37,228 bases of DNA from a virus: IMG/VR virus record IMGVR_UViG_3300031758_000223, positions 1 to 37,228 of that record; one strand, written 5' to 3'. Under the pieces are notes generated by a model, which was given only the letters and a program-made list of their open reading frames with translations, was not told the DNA's origin and did not search any database. Every line of letters begins with the position of its first letter. Position 1 is the stretch's first letter. Below, one piece after another: positions 1 through 37,228 of the stretch. The position numbers and the translations under genes were made by a program.

Positions 1-145
1 GCTTCTAGAGGGTGCAGTGCTGGCGTGCCAAACGGGATTTCAATCTCTTGACCCTTGTACACCATTATTCTTCCACCGGAACTGGTTGTTGATGCAGTCG
101 GCTCAGGTACTTTTGGCGGAGCGGGTGCTTCGGCCGCTGGCTTCT
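1..145. repeat. Left copy of 145-bp terminal direct repeat
   Basis: Bases 1-145 match bases 37084-37228, with one difference (G at 19, C at 37102). The repeat lies inside an open reading frame that continues in frame across the join, so it is most simply the overlap of a circular assembly and not a T7-style terminal repeat. The unit genome is 37,083 bp. In the minus-strand protein the mismatch changes GCA (Ala) to GGA (Gly). Confidence 0.95.
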
Positions 146-2459: not shown

Positions 2460-4430
2460 TCACGATGCTAACCACGACGGTCGCCACATGCGCGGGGGTG
2501 CGTGCGTGGGTCTCAACTGCGGCATGTGCAGTTCCGCGAACCAGTGCGCCATGACCAAGTCGGTGCCGTTCTTCTTTCCACGGGTCCACGTAGCCATCTC
2601 GTCGATGAAGGCGAGCGTCTTCCAGTTGTCACGCATCGTCGGCAACCGGACTTGACCGGTGCGCCACAGCGGGGGAAGCAGAGCCTCGATTCCCAGGTTC
2701 TCGTCCAACTTGTTCCTGCCCGTGTGGTGGGCGATCACATTCACGCCACGCTTTGCCTGCCACCTACGGACGAAGTCGTGGGCTAGTAGAAACCGCTGGG
2801 CTGCGTTGACCTCGACCACCCAGTGGGTGATCTTGCAGCCCATGTCGTCGGACCGGGTCTGCCAGTCCTCCATCAGACCCCAGTACGAACCGGTGCCCGT
2901 GTCGTACCCAAGAAGTTCCTCGGCGGTCAACTTGCACCGCTCGACGTCAATTAGGTACCGCAGGTTCGTCTCCGGTTGATACACCCACCACTGGACGGCC
3001 CAGAACATTGTCGGGGAGGGGTCGACCGTGGCAATGGAGATCAGTGGCTGCGCCAGACCCGGCGGCAGATAGCCAGGACGGCGATGCTGGTCAATGCACC
3101 CAGGGTAAAGAACGCCGTCGTTGCCCATTCCCCCAGTTGCCCACGTCCTCTCAATGAGGTAGTGACCATCCGCCATGTCCTGCTGCTGATAGACCACCTC
3201 GAACTTCGACGGCGAGTTGTGCCGGATGTAGGAAAGGTCCTTCCAAGAGAGTCGAAACGGTTCCAAGAGGGGGCCGTTTGGCCACGGAGCCGCATCTTGT
3301 CTTCGTGATTTGGGTCCATCATCCAACTCCTCGTAGTAGGCCTTGTACACCATGTGGTGGTACTTACTGTGTTTGATCGGCTCGACGTTCTCGGAGATAT
3401 CCAGGACATCGTTTCCGTCGTACTCCTCGACTTCTTCGTAGGAGATCTTGGAAAGGCAGTGGGCATACAGGTCGCCCGGTCCGAGGCGCTGACCAATGAC
3501 GGCGAGTAGGCCGCCCGGATCAACGCGGGCCTCGGCCATGGAGTCCCAGCGCTCGATCAACTTGTCGCGGGCTACCGATTCCTTGGAGTTCTCCGGACCG
3601 GCGACGTCGTCAAAGAGACACAGTTCTGCACGGTGTCCGATGAACTCGGACTCGATGCCGTAGGCCGAAACGGTGGGCTCCTTGTTGTCGAGCCCCATGT
3701 TCCCCTGCTGCTCGACGATGAACTCCTCGGCGCGCCACAGGGCTCCCTGGTTCTGCGGCTTGAACCTTCCGTAGTCCAGCGACAGGCAGGCTTCGGCGTT
3801 GATGGCCAGTCCACGAGCCACCATCTCCGGGTCCGGGTGCATAGGGACGGTGCGCTCAAGGGTGTCCCTGATTCGACGGCTGTACATCTTCGCCAAAGTC
3901 TGGCTGATCGATCCGATCATCACGCGGATAGCCCGGTTGCGGACAATGCACCACACGGCTACGTCGTGGAAGAGGGTGGACTTGCCCACGCCAGGCGGGC
4001 AGTTGAGAACGAGGAACTGCTTCTCTGGATGCTCCAACCATTCGACGATCTTGTAGGCGGCATCAACCTGCCAGGGAGAGGGGACTCTTCCTAGGTAGAC
4101 AGTCCTGAAGTAGTCAAAGTCTTCAAGTCCTCGTTGTGCTCGCGCCGACAGGCGCGAAGTTGGTATTACGGGGGGCATGTCCGGCGAAAGTGCGCGGTCC
4201 CTCGCAACCTTCGACGAGCCACCCCCATCCAGGATGGCGGCCTTTGCCCCGAGGACTTTGGCTGCCTCGATCTCGGCGCTGGTCTGGTCTGCCCGTGCGC
4301 GCCACTTCAGCGCTGTGTTGTACGCAATGCCACCCATACGGGCGGCTTCTCTCAGCGTTGTGCCCGACTGCAGCGCCTGCCAGAACAGTGCGCGGTCTTC
4401 TGCGGAAACCGTACGTCTTCCCTTTGGCAT
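2460..4430 (-). CDS. terL: Terminase large subunit with N-terminal HTH
   Basis: This is the 656-aa DNA-packaging motor, which cuts concatemeric DNA and translocates it through the portal. The ATPase domain has Walker A CPPGVGKST (about 144-152) and Walker B LCLFDD (about 270-275). The RNase-H-like nuclease domain shows the expected acidic residues: D470 in IATVDPS, E540 in WVVEVNAAQ and D624 in NGTDLVMAHWF. The first 60 residues form a helix-turn-helix-like segment (TTLREAARMGGIAYNTALKW), of the kind often found in small terminase subunits. No separate small terminase is obvious, so the DNA-recognition function may be fused here (inference). The ATG at 4430 has no strong ribosome site but gives the whole HTH. 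It is the first gene of the late operon, downstream of a 485-bp structured gap. Confidence 0.95.
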   Translation of the reverse strand: MPKGRRTVSAEDRALFWQALQSGTTLREAARMGGIAYNTALKWRARADQTSAEIEAAKVLGAKAAILDGGGSSKVARDRALSPDMPPVIPTSRLSARAQRGLEDFDYFRTVYLGRVPSPWQVDAAYKIVEWLEHPEKQFLVLNCPPGVGKSTLFHDVAVWCIVRNRAIRVMIGSISQTLAKMYSRRIRDTLERTVPMHPDPEMVARGLAINAEACLSLDYGRFKPQNQGALWRAEEFIVEQQGNMGLDNKEPTVSAYGIESEFIGHRAELCLFDDVAGPENSKESVARDKLIERWDSMAEARVDPGGLLAVIGQRLGPGDLYAHCLSKISYEEVEEYDGNDVLDISENVEPIKHSKYHHMVYKAYYEELDDGPKSRRQDAAPWPNGPLLEPFRLSWKDLSYIRHNSPSKFEVVYQQQDMADGHYLIERTWATGGMGNDGVLYPGCIDQHRRPGYLPPGLAQPLISIATVDPSPTMFWAVQWWVYQPETNLRYLIDVERCKLTAEELLGYDTGTGSYWGLMEDWQTRSDDMGCKITHWVVEVNAAQRFLLAHDFVRRWQAKRGVNVIAHHTGRNKLDENLGIEALLPPLWRTGQVRLPTMRDNWKTLAFIDEMATWTRGKKNGTDLVMAHWFAELHMPQLRPTHAPPRMWRPSWLAS

Positions 4431-4530
4431 GTGCGTTGAAATCGTACACGCGTGCTGCTATCCTGCGCGCACAACGAAGTTGTGACCGTCGGGATGACGG
4501 GCACCGGCCGCGCTGGACCCCGGATGAAAT

Positions 4531-4609: not shown

Positions 4610-4638
4610 GCGATACTCACGGGGAACAACAACAGCAA
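4610..4638 (-). promoter_or_regulatory. Candidate late promoter for the virion operon
   Basis: On the minus strand TTGCTG (4633-4638), a 17-bp spacer and TATCGC (4610-4615) resemble the early-region promoter TTGCAA-17-TATCGT. It would start transcription near 4603, about 170 nt before terminase. Neither hexamer is a strong consensus match, so this is tentative. Confidence 0.35.
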
Positions 4639-4824
4639 TGACGGGTGTCGGCTAGAAGACTGGCTACGGCCACCCGCTACTTCGGGTAGCAAAGCGTGGG
4701 GGGAGGCCCACATATCCCTTTTTCTGGTGGCCGAATGCCATCTTGAGTCACATTTGTACGTGTGTCTTATACACACATGTCGAGGAACGCTAGTTACTGT
4801 AGATCGGTGCCGGTGCCGCGGCAG

Positions 4825-12543: not shown

Positions 12544-12701
12544 GACGAGTAGTACCCATTGTCGGCAAGAGCGTCCTCGATGAACTCACGGATGAGAACG
12601 GAGCGTGTTGACTTGCGATCCTTGGCCATCCTCCCCAACGACTTGATGATGCCGTTAGGTAGGCGCAAAGTGATGACCGTCATCGCCTTCTTTTCGCTCA
12701 T
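12540..12701 (-). CDS. Ribbon-helix-helix DNA-binding protein (53 aa)
   Basis: ATG at 12699-12701 overlaps the stop of the annealing-protein gene (ATGA). MTVITLRLPNGIIKSLGRMA forms the basic beta strand and first helix of a CopG/Arc-type fold, and KSTRSVLIREFIEDAL is the second helix. Members dimerise and insert the paired strands into operator DNA. It is the only small repressor-like protein visible. A perfect 20-bp dyad in front of this operon (14320-14339) is a natural candidate site (inference). Confidence 0.82.
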   Translation of the reverse strand: MSEKKAMTVITLRLPNGIIKSLGRMAKDRKSTRSVLIREFIEDALADNGYYSS

Positions 12702-13357
12702 GACTTCAACGCCGTAATGACAGCCGACGCCTCGCCCTTGTTCATCTCGTCAAACTTGCTGATCTCTCTGCCGATGATGCCGATCACTGCGTTGAGTTGA
12801 GCCTCCTTGGTGGTGGCACCATCCTGCGCCAGCAGTGCACGGATCATGCCGAACTGCTTGACCGACGCCGGTTCGCTGGGGTTCTTGATCTCCATGCTGC
12901 CCGACTGACGTGGTGCCTGCTGCACCGTGCCGTTGAACTGGTCGGCAAGAACCTCTGCCAACTCCTGTGGCGTGGGCTCGTCATCCCAGCCCTGGTTCTG
13001 GGCGACCGGGCGCTGTGGTTGCGGAGTCATGCGCTGCACCTTCTGCATCTCTTGCGCAGACGGACGAGCACCTGGCTTGTGCACTCCGAGCGGGCTATTG
13101 GCAATCATCCTGCCGATGGCCGACGTCTCACAGTTCTCGACGAACGACGTCTTGTTCACTGGGCTAGACCCAAGCACCTCTTCGGCGTAGCCGGTGGCAA
13201 TGATCTTGCCGTCGACCAAACCTTCGGCGCGGAACACTACGGTCTTGGCGTCGTAGTGCACCATCGTCGTGGTGATCTGTGCGTTCGGATACTGCTCCCA
13301 CCAGCGGACAAGGCGCTCCTCGACCGTCTCGTAGTTCTCTGGGTTGAAGAACCCCAT
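12698..13357 (-). CDS. Putative single-strand annealing protein (219 aa)
   Basis: The N-terminal half reads MGFFNPENYETVEERLVRWW, then QYPNAQITTTMVHYDAKTVV, GYAEEVLGSS and NKTSFVENCETSAIGRMIAN. This matches the pattern of phage proteins that accompany exonucleases and bind or anneal ssDNA; the NCETSAIGR element recalls ERF-type GR motifs. A Pro/Gln-rich linker follows. The C-terminus (PASVKQFGMIRALL... EASAVITAL) is a short helical module common in such proteins. The ATG at 13355-13357 with GGAGG 8 nt upstream is chosen; it starts 2 nt after the exonuclease stop. Assignment rests on family resemblance and the exonuclease partner. Confidence 0.65.
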   Translation of the reverse strand: MGFFNPENYETVEERLVRWWEQYPNAQITTTMVHYDAKTVVFRAEGLVDGKIIATGYAEEVLGSSPVNKTSFVENCETSAIGRMIANSPLGVHKPGARPSAQEMQKVQRMTPQPQRPVAQNQGWDDEPTPQELAEVLADQFNGTVQQAPRQSGSMEIKNPSEPASVKQFGMIRALLAQDGATTKEAQLNAVIGIIGREISKFDEMNKGEASAVITALKS

Positions 13358-13359
13358 GG

Positions 13360-14304
13360 CTACTTCCTCCTTGCGTGCTTCATCACGCGGTAAGACCCCG
13401 TCTTCTGGTACTTCTCGTACAGGGCGGGGTGCTGCTCCCTGAACGAATCCTTGTCGAACGACTTGCGTTCTTGCGTCTTCCATGTCATGAGCGTCTCGCC
13501 GCCCATGTCCACGACCGTATCGGCGTCGCCCATCAGGCGTCCAATCATGCCCTTGATCTCGGACTCCTCTTTCTCCAGGCGGGCAATCTGGCTGCGAACC
13601 TCGTGTAGGTGGTCGACCAACTGAACGTCTTCCTCGTTGAACGCCACGGACACGGCCTGTGACTGCGGGTGCATGCGCTGCACATGGTCATAGTCAAACG
13701 ACACGATCTCCGGCAGTTCCCCGTTCTCCACTTCGCGCAGGAACTGGGCACAGGCTGCGATGTGCAACTGCTTCTCGTCGCTGCTGACGTACTGACTGTA
13801 ACGGTGCAGAGTCAGGTCACTGTCAAAGATCGCCCACTCGATGCGACTGGCACCAGCGCAGATGGCCTGCTGCACGCCCTGCCAGTACCAGTGGCGGGGG
13901 AGTTCCCCGGTCCACCGCTTGCGGGTGGTCTTCACCTCGTACGGGATTCCGTCCGGCGAGATAGCGTCGAGCGTGGCGATGAGATGAGCGTCGCCGTCGA
14001 CGTGCACATACATTACGTCTGGCGTGGCGAGGTCGACCCCGTCGCGGTCTGCCGCCCACTGGATAAGGACGGGTTCGAGGCGGTTGCCCCGGTCCATGTC
14101 GGCGGTGGATTCCATCGGGACCGGCGGCTGGTCCGCCGCAAGTTCGGCGTACAGATCGGCAGCCGAGATGTATGGGTGCTCGGCGTAGACCGCCGCCGCT
14201 GCGGATGCACTGATCCTGCGGTTACCCTCTTCGTCTGCCCAACGGGCAGTAAGCCAATCCTGAGAGCCGTGCTCCGGCTTCTGGATAGTCGACCAGTTCT
14301 TCAT
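13360..14304 (-). CDS. YqaJ-type/RecB-like exonuclease (314 aa)
   Basis: PD-(D/E)XK exonuclease of the lambda Exo/YqaJ type, which resects DNA ends to give substrate for an annealing protein. Visible motifs are QDWLTARW near the N-terminus, SASAAAAVYAEHPYIS, DRGNRLEPVLIQWA (the conserved Glu), HLIATLDAISPDGIPYEVKT (catalytic Asp, then E-X-K), and WYWQGVQQAICAG (the conserved Gln helix). The C-terminal third holds a coiled coil (SQIARLEKEESEIKGMIGRL). The ATG has GGAGG 5 nt upstream. A candidate promoter with an operator dyad lies directly in front. Confidence 0.9.
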   Translation of the reverse strand: MKNWSTIQKPEHGSQDWLTARWADEEGNRRISASAAAAVYAEHPYISAADLYAELAADQPPVPMESTADMDRGNRLEPVLIQWAADRDGVDLATPDVMYVHVDGDAHLIATLDAISPDGIPYEVKTTRKRWTGELPRHWYWQGVQQAICAGASRIEWAIFDSDLTLHRYSQYVSSDEKQLHIAACAQFLREVENGELPEIVSFDYDHVQRMHPQSQAVSVAFNEEDVQLVDHLHEVRSQIARLEKEESEIKGMIGRLMGDADTVVDMGGETLMTWKTQERKSFDKDSFREQHPALYEKYQKTGSYRVMKHARRK

Positions 14305-14642: not shown

Positions 14643-15650
14643 TTAGTCCAGCCAGATGGTGTACTCGGCTGTGACCCGCCCCTTCTCAGGATCGATGTAA
14701 TGCAGCCGCTGCGACGGCTTGCCCACGGCAGCGACGAACACACGGGCGTACTCGTTGTGCGACTCGGGAGAGCCGGACACGAAGACGCGACCGCCATTCG
14801 CCATGGTCAGTGTCATCGGTGTGTGGAAGTGACCCATGTACACGTCTTGGAAGTCGTCGACCACGCCGGTTGCCCAGGCGTTGCACTTGCGCAGGATGCC
14901 GAAGGCCGGGACGTTGCCGCCGTACGAGTTGATCTCGTCACCGTGGACGAGCATCGCCTTGTAGTTTCCGATCGTAAAGATCTGGTGCCAGTCACCCGAC
15001 TGCTGCCAAGTCACGTTCTTCATCTCGGACAAACGCTCCGATGCAATCCGGTACGCAAACCTGTCGATGTTGTCGCCGCCGGGCATGTCACCCTTGCGAC
15101 CCAACCGACCGTGATTACCGAACTCACACACGACGTGGACCTTGTCAAAGTACAGGGCGAGGCGAGCGATTGCTTCCTGGATCACGGACACGACGGTGAA
15201 GAGTTGCTCAAACAGGTGAGCCTCCACCTCGTATGCCTGACCCGGGAAGATGCCGATGCCCTCGACCATGTCTCCACCCAGCAGTACAACGCACTCCCTG
15301 ACAGGATGGTGTGCGCGCTGGATGTCGGTCAGGGTCATGACCTTGTCGATCATCTTCCTGATCCGCTCAGCGAGCGTCTCCATGCCGTAGGACACGGTCT
15401 TCTTGCCAGCCTGCCAGTCGGTTAGGTGAACGAGCGCCACCTCTGACTTCGCCTTGCGTGTGTCCTTAGCCGGGGGCTTCAGGATGATGCGAGGTGCAGC
15501 CAACTGTGCGTCACGCGCAGCCTGATACACAGCCTCGACGAGGTCTTCGGTCTTGCGCTTGGCCCTGGCTTCACCAGCCAGGGCACGCTTTAGTGCAGAC
15601 CTGTACTCCTCGATAGCCGTCTCGGTGTTGATTGCGTCAGAAAAGTTCAT
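14643..15650 (-). CDS. Calcineurin-like metallophosphoesterase (335 aa)
   Basis: All metal-site motifs of the family are present in order: HLTDWQAG (the D-X-H-like first motif, here D-W-Q), VLLGGDMVEG (GD), CEFGNHGR (GNH), MLVHGDE (the later His) and MGHFHTP (GHXH). About 70 N-terminal residues are helical and charged. Enzymes of this type include SbcD/Mre11 nucleases and other phosphodiesterases; next to an exonuclease and annealing protein, a DNA-end role is plausible but unproven. The ATG at 15648-15650 with GGAG 4 nt upstream is chosen; it overlaps the previous gene by 14 nt. The first motif lacks the usual His. Confidence 0.85.
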   Translation of the reverse strand: MNFSDAINTETAIEEYRSALKRALAGEARAKRKTEDLVEAVYQAARDAQLAAPRIILKPPAKDTRKAKSEVALVHLTDWQAGKKTVSYGMETLAERIRKMIDKVMTLTDIQRAHHPVRECVVLLGGDMVEGIGIFPGQAYEVEAHLFEQLFTVVSVIQEAIARLALYFDKVHVVCEFGNHGRLGRKGDMPGGDNIDRFAYRIASERLSEMKNVTWQQSGDWHQIFTIGNYKAMLVHGDEINSYGGNVPAFGILRKCNAWATGVVDDFQDVYMGHFHTPMTLTMANGGRVFVSGSPESHNEYARVFVAAVGKPSQRLHYIDPEKGRVTAEYTIWLD

Positions 15651-15909
15651 TGTTCTCCTGGTACTCCTCACGCTTGCGGTGAATGGTCATCACCGACAAG
15701 TCCACGTCGAACTGCTTCAGCGCACGCATGATTGCGGCGGTACTGACGCTCTTGTCTGCCATTGCCTTCTCGAAGGCGGCGAAAGACTCGGGGTCCATCG
15801 CTGCCCTGATACGGTCGAGTGCACCCTTGCGATGCGACTGTCCGAGCGCCCTCTCAAAGACGCTCACTTCCCCCGCTGGGGACTCCGGCTTGAACTGCTT
15901 CGTTGCCAT
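15637..15909 (-). CDS. Small HTH-like protein, first early gene (90 aa)
   Basis: ATG at 15907-15909 with GGAGG 4 nt upstream. The basic N-terminus (MATKQFKPESPAGEVSVFER) is followed by helices. VSTAAIMRALKQFDVDLSVM then TIHRKREEY resembles a helix-turn-helix. It is the first gene after the symmetric early promoter, a typical position for a DNA-binding regulator. The fold is inferred from helix pattern only. Confidence 0.75.
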   Translation of the reverse strand: MATKQFKPESPAGEVSVFERALGQSHRKGALDRIRAAMDPESFAAFEKAMADKSVSTAAIMRALKQFDVDLSVMTIHRKREEYQENNELF

Positions 15910-15941
15910 GTTTCCTCCTCTGCGGTACTTCCGCGACACAG

Positions 15942-15993
15942 ACGATACACCCTGGGTCCGGTAGTTGCAACCATCCGGTCGGGCGTGTATCGT
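15942..15993. promoter_or_regulatory. Mirror-symmetric divergent promoter sharing one -35
   Basis: The palindromic hexamer TTGCAA (15965-15970) is flanked on each side by exactly 17 bp and then TATCGT: reading minus at 15942-15947 and plus at 15988-15993. The outer arms ACGATACAC and GTGTATCGT form a 9-bp perfect inverted repeat centred on the same point (15967.5). Each half is a reasonable SigA promoter (TTG-17-TANNNT). The minus half leads into the early operon. The plus half points toward the lysis genes, where no plus gene exists, so it would make an antisense or non-coding RNA. Alternatively the dyad is an operator and only the minus promoter is used. Confidence 0.65.
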
Positions 15994-16026
15994 GACCCGC
16001 ACAACCGGTCAGTAACCACGAGGTCG

Positions 16027-16073
16027 TACCCCTGTCGCACGGGGCGGGACATGAACACCTGGGAACAGGGGTA
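16027..16073. repeat. 9-bp inverted repeat in the early control region
   Basis: TACCCCTGT (16027-16035) and ACAGGGGTA (16065-16073) are exact reverse complements, 29 nt apart. It may form part of the late terminator or fold in a plus-strand transcript from the divergent promoter. Confidence 0.55.
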
Positions 16074-16153
16074 GATCGTGCTGTCATGGCACGAGGCGGG
16101 CAGCGGCAACGCGCTTACGAAATCAGGGTGTTCGGGTGAGGCAACCGGACGGG

Positions 16154-16184: not shown

Positions 16185-16412
16185 TCAGTGCTTGTGTGTA
16201 CGCACCTCGTCACGCAGCGAGTCGACTTCCCCGGAGATCCTGTCCAACTTCGTCTCGTTGCGCTGGAGCCCCTTGTAGACGAGGGTCAGCATGGCACTCA
16301 CATACTGGTGGTCTTGCTTGTTTTCTTTCTTTACCTTGCTCAGCAAGGCGACGATGACTCCACCTACGGCTGTAACCAACGACGCAAGGAGGACTGCCCA
16401 CGCCTGAGACAC
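16185..16412 (-). CDS. Holin-like membrane protein with coiled coil (75 aa)
   Basis: One N-terminal membrane span (AWAVLLASLVTAVGGVIVAL) is followed by a basic stretch (SKVKKENKQ) and a probable coiled coil (RNETKLDRISGEVDSLRDEV). This fits a small holin or a spanin/antiholin-like accessory protein. GTG at 16410-16412 starts 1 nt after the M15 peptidase stop. It is the last gene of the late operon. Confidence 0.7.
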   Translation of the reverse strand: MSQAWAVLLASLVTAVGGVIVALLSKVKKENKQDHQYVSAMLTLVYKGLQRNETKLDRISGEVDSLRDEVRTHKH

Positions 16413-36123: not shown

Positions 36124-37228
36124 TAGTAAGAGGGCTCGTCGAACAAGTCGATGTCGTCAGGGTTTACCTCTTGCTCGAAGTCCGGATCTGATGTGCGGCG
36201 CTGGGTTCCACGCGACTCGACTGCCTGCAACTCAGATTCAACGTCAGAGGAAAGTCCAGGAAGGCTTTCATCTACAGTCTCGGACACCGGCTTGCCCGCT
36301 GCCTTCTGCTTCGCCATGCGCGCAAGACGCGCGTTTTCTGTAGCGCTCATGGGCCTGGCCTTCGGCACAACACTGGCAATGTACTCCTGGTTGAACTCAA
36401 GCATGACCCGGCGCGATTCTTCGATTTGCCTCTCCAGGGCGGCAATGTTGGCCGACTCCACTTCGGTACGCGCACCACCACGGAGATCGGTGAGTTCCAT
36501 CAGGCGCGTGCGCTGATTCTCAAGCGCCCCGATCGTCTTATCAAGTGCGGTTCTTTCCGCGGTAGACGTCGGCTTTACCGGCGGCTCGAAGGTCATCGGA
36601 CTGCTCAACTCTTCGGGTATGGTCACACCACGACGGTTGAACCTCGTCTGCGTGCCTTCGTTTGACACTGCCTTCATCTGGCCGGGAACCTTGGTTCCCG
36701 AGGACGTAGCAGCCTGCTTGACCGGATTCTTCTCAAGGAATGCCTGAATGTTTGGATTTGCCTTGACTGTTGCTACGAAATCCTGGATGGGCATGTCGTT
36801 GAGCAACTGACGTCCACCCTGCTTGTTCATAAACTCATCAAAGCGCTCTTGGGTCTTGATGGCGCTCAGGTCCATCGGTTTTCCTGCTGTAGCAGATGCA
36901 GGAGCAACCGGTGCACGACCAGTACCGGTATTGCGCGCAGTATTACTTGCTGCAGCCTGGGCTCTTGCTGCACCCTCGGCCATTATCGCCTCGGCTCTTG
37001 CTGCAGACTCGGCTGCAGCCTCGGCTATTGCCTCCGACGTTGGAGCACGACCAGTTGCTTTAGCCGGAGAAATTCCAGCCCGCGCTTCTAGAGGGTGCAG
37101 TCCTGGCGTGCCAAACGGGATTTCAATCTCTTGACCCTTGTACACCATTATTCTTCCACCGGAACTGGTTGTTGATGCAGTCGGCTCAGGTACTTTTGGC
37201 GGAGCGGGTGCTTCGGCCGCTGGCTTCT
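36123..37228 (-). CDS. Junction-spanning large virion-region protein, C-terminal part
   Basis: This is the C-terminal continuation of the gene at 1-2420; the frame is open to the contig end, and 37084-37228 repeats 1-145. An internal ATG at 37146-37148 (MVYKGQEIEIPFG) is not the start, since codons before it (IRGGSSTTSATPEPVKPP read backwards) are open into the left end. This part has a compact start (GQEIEIPFGTPGLHPLEARA), an Ala-rich helix (AEAAAESAARAEAIMAEGAA), a globular middle (ERFDEFMNKQGGRQLLNDMP), a coiled coil (ESANIAALERQIEESRRVML) and an acidic C-terminus (DPDFEQEVNPDDIDLFDEPS). Its stop overlaps the portal start by 1 nt. Confidence 0.88.
   Translation of the reverse strand, partial: KPAAEAPAPPKVPEPTASTTSSGGRIMVYKGQEIEIPFGTPGLHPLEARAGISPAKATGRAPTSEAIAEAAAESAARAEAIMAEGAARAQAAASNTARNTGTGRAPVAPASATAGKPMDLSAIKTQERFDEFMNKQGGRQLLNDMPIQDFVATVKANPNIQAFLEKNPVKQAATSSGTKVPGQMKAVSNEGTQTRFNRRGVTIPEELSSPMTFEPPVKPTSTAERTALDKTIGALENQRTRLMELTDLRGGARTEVESANIAALERQIEESRRVMLEFNQEYIASVVPKARPMSATENARLARMAKQKAAGKPVSETVDESLPGLSSDVESELQAVESRGTQRRTSDPDFEQEVNPDDIDLFDEPSY
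37084..37228. repeat. Right copy of 145-bp terminal direct repeat
   Basis: Repeats bases 1-145 with C at 37102 where the left copy has G at 19. It should be counted once in the circular genome of 37,083 bp. Confidence 0.95.

Follow-up and report, generated by a model that had tools for sequence, protein, structure and literature searches.

Divergent phage promoters on a common palindromic -35 element and a conserved structured RNA predicted from the plus arm

The DNA that was analysed, referred to as the window, was the whole 37,228-nt stretch of the IMG/VR virus record IMGVR_UViG_3300031758_000223. A terminal direct repeat of 145 bp (99% identical) was present at 1-145 and 37084-37228, and the window probably represents the whole genome of a phage, ~37.1 kb in size and either circular or terminally redundant. 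The genes and promoter elements concerned are listed below.

2460..4430, minus strand: terminase large subunit (phrog_38, 2.7e-59), divergent from RNA-B
14643..15671, minus strand: exonuclease of the early operon (phrog_284)
15637..15909, minus strand: first early-operon protein, 90 aa, with no significant family match
15942..15947, minus strand: TATCGT -10 (ACGATA on the plus strand) of the leftward early-operon promoter, predicted start near 15935
15965..15970, no strand: palindromic TTGCAA -35 common to both arms, from the sequence read and relatives
15988..15993, plus strand: TATCGT -10 of the rightward RNA-A promoter, predicted start 16000-16001, TAnnnT kept in 17/17 loci
16185..16412, minus strand: 75-aa protein, possibly membrane/holin-like (phrog_32850, unknown function; weak match to a membrane-protein family)

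The early operon was found to run from the small protein (start 15909, after the RBS-like AGAGGAGG) through the phrog_284 exonuclease to a RecE-like protein, and this order supports the sequence-only reading in which the minus arm feeds the early operon. The positional counterpart of 15637..15909 in phage DSL-LC01 carries the label 'terminase small subunit' by annotation only. The gene at 16185..16412 is the final lysis-side gene before RNA-A and lies on the opposite strand.

The site at 15942-15993 was borne out by the sequence in every described element and coordinate. The TTGCAA hexamer is separated from each TATCGT -10 by 17 bp and forms the core of the palindrome GTTGCAAC (15964-15971), and a 9-bp inverted repeat, ACGATACAC (15942-15950) and GTGTATCGT (15985-15993), is centred on it as well. 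The pattern ANNNTA-N17-TTGCAA-N17-TANNNT gave 1 match in 37,228 bp against a mean of 0.00 in 100 dinucleotide shuffles (none in any); since the pattern was composed after the site had been seen, this test exaggerates the surprise, and conservation is the better test. The TTGCAA hexamer by itself was not enriched in the window (5 seen vs 7.9 expected). A sigma-70 scan of 15942-15993 that demands 9/12 consensus matches reported no promoter, and the case for promoters leans on conservation instead.

Related loci were collected from viral contigs as relatives of the neighbouring exonuclease, and further ones by a core-sequence pattern. A rightward promoter, TTGnnn-16..18-TAnnnT, was recorded in all 17 RNA-A loci, 5-7 nt upstream of the 5' motif ACAAY. 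The script accepted any TTGnnn and TAnnnT, which is a loose definition of a promoter, so the argument was built on constant placement. The leftward promoter used exactly the same palindromic TTGCAA (offset 0) in 7/17 loci, and in 5/17 its -35 overlapped the rightward one, displaced by 1, 3 or 8 bp. A common or overlapping -35 was thus found in 12/17 loci, as is expected of divergent promoters with overlapping -35 elements. In the other 5/17 the leftward promoter was not found by the script criteria, so competition between the arms is no universal feature. Divergence of the right arm, set beforehand as the outcome that would count against the reading, was not seen; the plus promoter was the better conserved of the two arms. 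The symmetry itself fared unevenly among the relatives: both hexamers and their spacing persisted, but the 9-bp inverted repeat decayed, with 7 bp left in locus L002 and none in L003. The proposal of divergent promoters on one common -35 is therefore supported by the hexamers and spacing, with the exact palindromic -35 retained in only 7/17 loci.

The sequence-only reading had stated that the plus direction has no gene. This was found to be wrong, as a conserved structured RNA is encoded there, with the following predicted features.

16001 to ~16160, plus strand: RNA-A, structured non-coding RNA of ~160 nt (homologue model, covariation)
16023-16025/16048-16050, plus strand: helix P1b
16029-16032/16041-16044, plus strand: helix P2
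16058-16061/16066-16069, plus strand: helix P3, with a GGAA loop
16076-16081/16089-16094, plus strand: helix P4
16131-16135/16145-16149, plus strand: helix P6, the 3' hairpin, with the loop GGCA(A/C) in the family

We infer the 5' end, ~7 nt past the -10, from the promoter geometry, and the 3' end, ~16160, from the point where conservation stops. The model R1 was built from 24 other sequences with the window left out, and its MAFFT alignment was made without structure. It matched the window at 16000-16074 (plus strand) with 57.9 bits and E 1.2e-20, and all helix cells of the 24-sequence alignment were standard pairs. Among 66 distinct homologues, 99.9% of helix cells were paired, the covariation score was 0.541 (0.141 when shuffled and <=0.08 with the partners slid), and two-sided changes were counted in 128 cells vs 33.5 in shuffles. 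The 66-sequence alignment was fitted to the structure and is biased towards it; the structure-free MAFFT alignment agrees with it. Helix P4 showed pairing in 66/66 cells, variation at all six pairs and 11 different stems. When read in the plus sense, the 66 homologues had 39 G-U cells vs 0 A-C cells, and the P3 loop was GNRA in 66/66; these counts identify the plus strand as the RNA strand. Covariation thus supports helices on one strand, as is expected of a structured non-coding RNA. Three helices and the GNRA loop make up the family core together with unpaired segments that do not vary, GGUAG among them. The RNA groups are separated by 1- or 2-base indels, which makes a coding sequence unlikely. 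Folding of single sequences was uninformative (z 0.07 and 0.46), and no terminator was recognised 3' of RNA-A. By these comparisons, the plus arm is predicted to start a previously unrecognised, strongly conserved structured RNA gene.

A diverged second copy, RNA-B, was located beside the terminase gene.

4436..4464, plus strand: RNA-B promoter, TTGAAA-17-TATCCT
4471 to ~4705, plus strand: RNA-B, diverged second copy, divergent from the terminase gene; 3' domain matched at 4612-4703

A search of the window with R1 missed RNA-B, the core of which has diverged. The model R2, built from RNA-B 3' domains of other phages with the window left out, matched 4612-4703 (plus strand) with 55.5 bits and E 2.5e-10. 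In several window-type phages, searches of whole records revealed two RNA copies with ~10.8 kb between them: RNA-A, which diverges from the exonuclease operon, and RNA-B, which diverges from the terminase. The window genes with family support lie on the minus strand, so transcription of both RNAs, at the junctions of the two operons, would run opposite to that of the genes. Loci L173-L177 carry a further conserved element 3' of RNA-B, roughly ACACACATATCGAGGACGGGTATT followed by C-rich/G-rich arms, and a possible counterpart lies near 4770 of the window. The record IMGVR_UViG_3300044655_000670 holds two equal-scoring RNA copies 14,975 bp apart (L151 and L153), and it probably arose by tandem assembly of a single ~15-kb genome.

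The RNA core pattern was matched in 110 viral stretches, and homologues were found in ~100 uncultured viral contigs, where they often adjoin terminase or HNH genes. Phages other than the window type carry a single copy. Some more distant relatives were without the RNA, and it was not present in the stretch around the exonuclease of the named relative DSL-LC01. The terminases belong to different families, phrog_38 in window-type phages and phrog_9 in group C, and the RNA core is nearly identical in both.

In group C, whose contigs often measure 14-15 kb, the RNA directly follows a stop codon ~300 nt upstream of an HNH-terminase gene and shares the direction of transcription of its neighbours. 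No promoter of its own was visible there, and together with its position after a stop codon this means that it may also act within mRNA in that group. Furthermore, 13 of 55 whole group C contigs end 600-640 nt past the RNA core, against a chance expectation of 0.26. The right ends read ...ATATGAC(CCCGACCCAA) and the matching left ends CTCAGTTC..., so that these ends look like a cos site. A homologous end point is shared by L169, L065, L138, L106 and other group C contigs, several of them ~14.3-14.6 kb long. The ends suggest, from contig sequence, cohesive ends of unusually small complete tailed-phage genomes. At L115:1104-2837 an HNH endonuclease and a terminase large subunit are fused in one reading frame, and the position of the presumed cos site in relatives appears to lie within this fusion.

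No relevant match was obtained in Rfam 15 (pRNA, 6S, put, GOLLD and ROOL included) at gathering or permissive thresholds. When five versions of the RNA were compared by blastn with 50,697 records of named phages, only weak or chance-level matches were obtained, and a pattern scan of the genomes of 84,980 prokaryote species gave one match, in the bacterial MAG L171, which was judged to be due to chance. A literature search found no description of the RNA-A/RNA-B family; all these results apply to the collections and patterns searched. No protein partner common and exclusive to all RNA-bearing phages was found. The best candidate, the protein at 12698-13483 of the window with weak RecT-like and GemA-like matches, is common to window-type and group C/D phages, yet it was absent from some RNA-bearing contigs and not exclusive to RNA bearers.

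Conservation of the promoter geometry and of the plus-strand RNA structure, and the presence of two loci, are demonstrated here at the sequence level. The symmetric site was proposed to consist of two sigma-70-type promoters that overlap; the minus arm would initiate the early (recombination) operon and the plus arm RNA-A. Because the -35 is common, one polymerase would be bound at a time and initiation of the early operon would compete with that of RNA-A; a switch by polymerase exclusion is plausible. The RNA would act in trans, and its core could be the landing platform for one common partner of RNA-A and RNA-B. The favoured reading is an RNA that acts in trans and is bound by a conserved partner. 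The RNA can lie on the same strand as its neighbours or on the opposite one, and it accompanies various terminases. These observations speak against a function as antisense RNA or leader and suggest either a partner encoded by the host, for instance RNA polymerase, or a role in packaging at the terminase end. We hold with good confidence the joint proposal of an overlapping promoter pair, with the minus arm feeding the early operon, the plus arm feeding the discrete structured RNA-A, and a trans-acting family with a common partner. It is suggested only tentatively, and with more doubt than belief, that the family is an undescribed class of trans-acting phage RNA with two paralogues at operon junctions and with various terminases, an essential partner of the host RNA polymerase or the packaging motor.

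Two narrower functions were considered. The RNA could regulate the host RNA polymerase or the transcription of the phage, either in trans as 6S does or, like put, on the transcribing polymerase, and so time the early-to-late switch at the two operon junctions. Both window copies lie at minus-strand operon junctions, each with its own promoter, the conservation across different terminases is what a host partner would predict, and HK022 putRNA is a precedent for an RNA acting on polymerase (PMC9378689). However, a put-like element needs same-strand downstream genes, none of which were recognised in the window, and similarity to Rfam families, 6S and put included, is absent; this function is possible but doubtful. 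A packaging RNA, part of the terminase motor like phi29 pRNA or of the cos-cutting machinery, would fit the adjacency of RNA-B to the terminase gene, the group C copy just upstream of the HNH/terminase gene with contig ends that fit a cos end, and the HNH-terminase fusion. It is nevertheless rather unlikely: RNA-A lies ~11.5 kb away from the terminase in the window, a pRNA should change along with its motor, yet this core is near-constant across phrog_38 and phrog_9 terminases, a match in Rfam is absent, and the adjacency may merely reflect the start of the late operon.

Three further explanations were weighed. The sequence-only reading held that the plus transcript may be antisense to the lysis operon, and plus transcripts would indeed head to 16185 and the lysis-side genes. 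This purpose was not supported and is quite improbable, as the conserved RNA stops ~25 nt short of the last lysis-side stop codon (16185), the conserved feature is an RNA structure with compensatory changes, and RNA-B and the group C copies, the latter co-directional with their neighbours, have different neighbours and orientations. The palindrome inside the inverted repeat could also be the operator of a dimeric repressor, with the plus promoter incidental, but the persistence of the promoter positions alone in L002 and L003 argues for two promoters with a common -35, and an operator is highly improbable. Finally, the position at the end of the late operon would suit a minus-strand 3' UTR or terminator, or a DNA element, with no plus-strand RNA; given the plus-sense G-U excess and GNRA loops and a promoter at a near-fixed distance, this is extremely improbable.

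To our knowledge, few phage-encoded structured RNAs have a known function. The trans-acting RNA family proposed here is common in environmental phages, is represented by two paralogues per genome in one group, and keeps its core across different packaging genes. The apparently empty side of a divergent promoter thereby gains a predicted product, and in a phage genome with its genes on one strand, a signal on the plus strand can turn out to be an RNA gene. With its common -35, the site offers a compact natural example of a geometry that would force two polymerases to compete.

Among known systems, phi29 pRNA is likewise a small structured phage-encoded RNA, and the RNA described here often lies beside packaging genes; it differs in having two copies per genome in window-type phages and in matching no Rfam family. 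The ornate RNAs GOLLD, ROOL and OLE are also structured, were found by comparative genomics and are of unclear function, but they are far larger (PMC12286853), and no Rfam match was obtained here. HK022 put, also a structured RNA element of a phage, acts on RNA polymerase in cis while early phage genes are transcribed (PMC9378689). The window RNAs fall outside this class of cis elements upstream of same-strand genes, since the family-supported genes are on the minus strand, RNA-A and RNA-B are on the plus strand, and no gene was recognised downstream on that strand; the group C RNA does precede a same-strand HNH-terminase gene. The bidirectional promoters of E. coli and Salmonella have a common -10 and opposite-strand starts 7-25 bp apart, commonly 18 (PMC12825309, PMC10268837). 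The present site lies outside that class as defined in PMC10268837, because it is the -35 that is common, with the -10 elements flanking it and the predicted starts ~65 bp apart. As in those promoters, one symmetric element would serve both strands, and competition between polymerases is expected.
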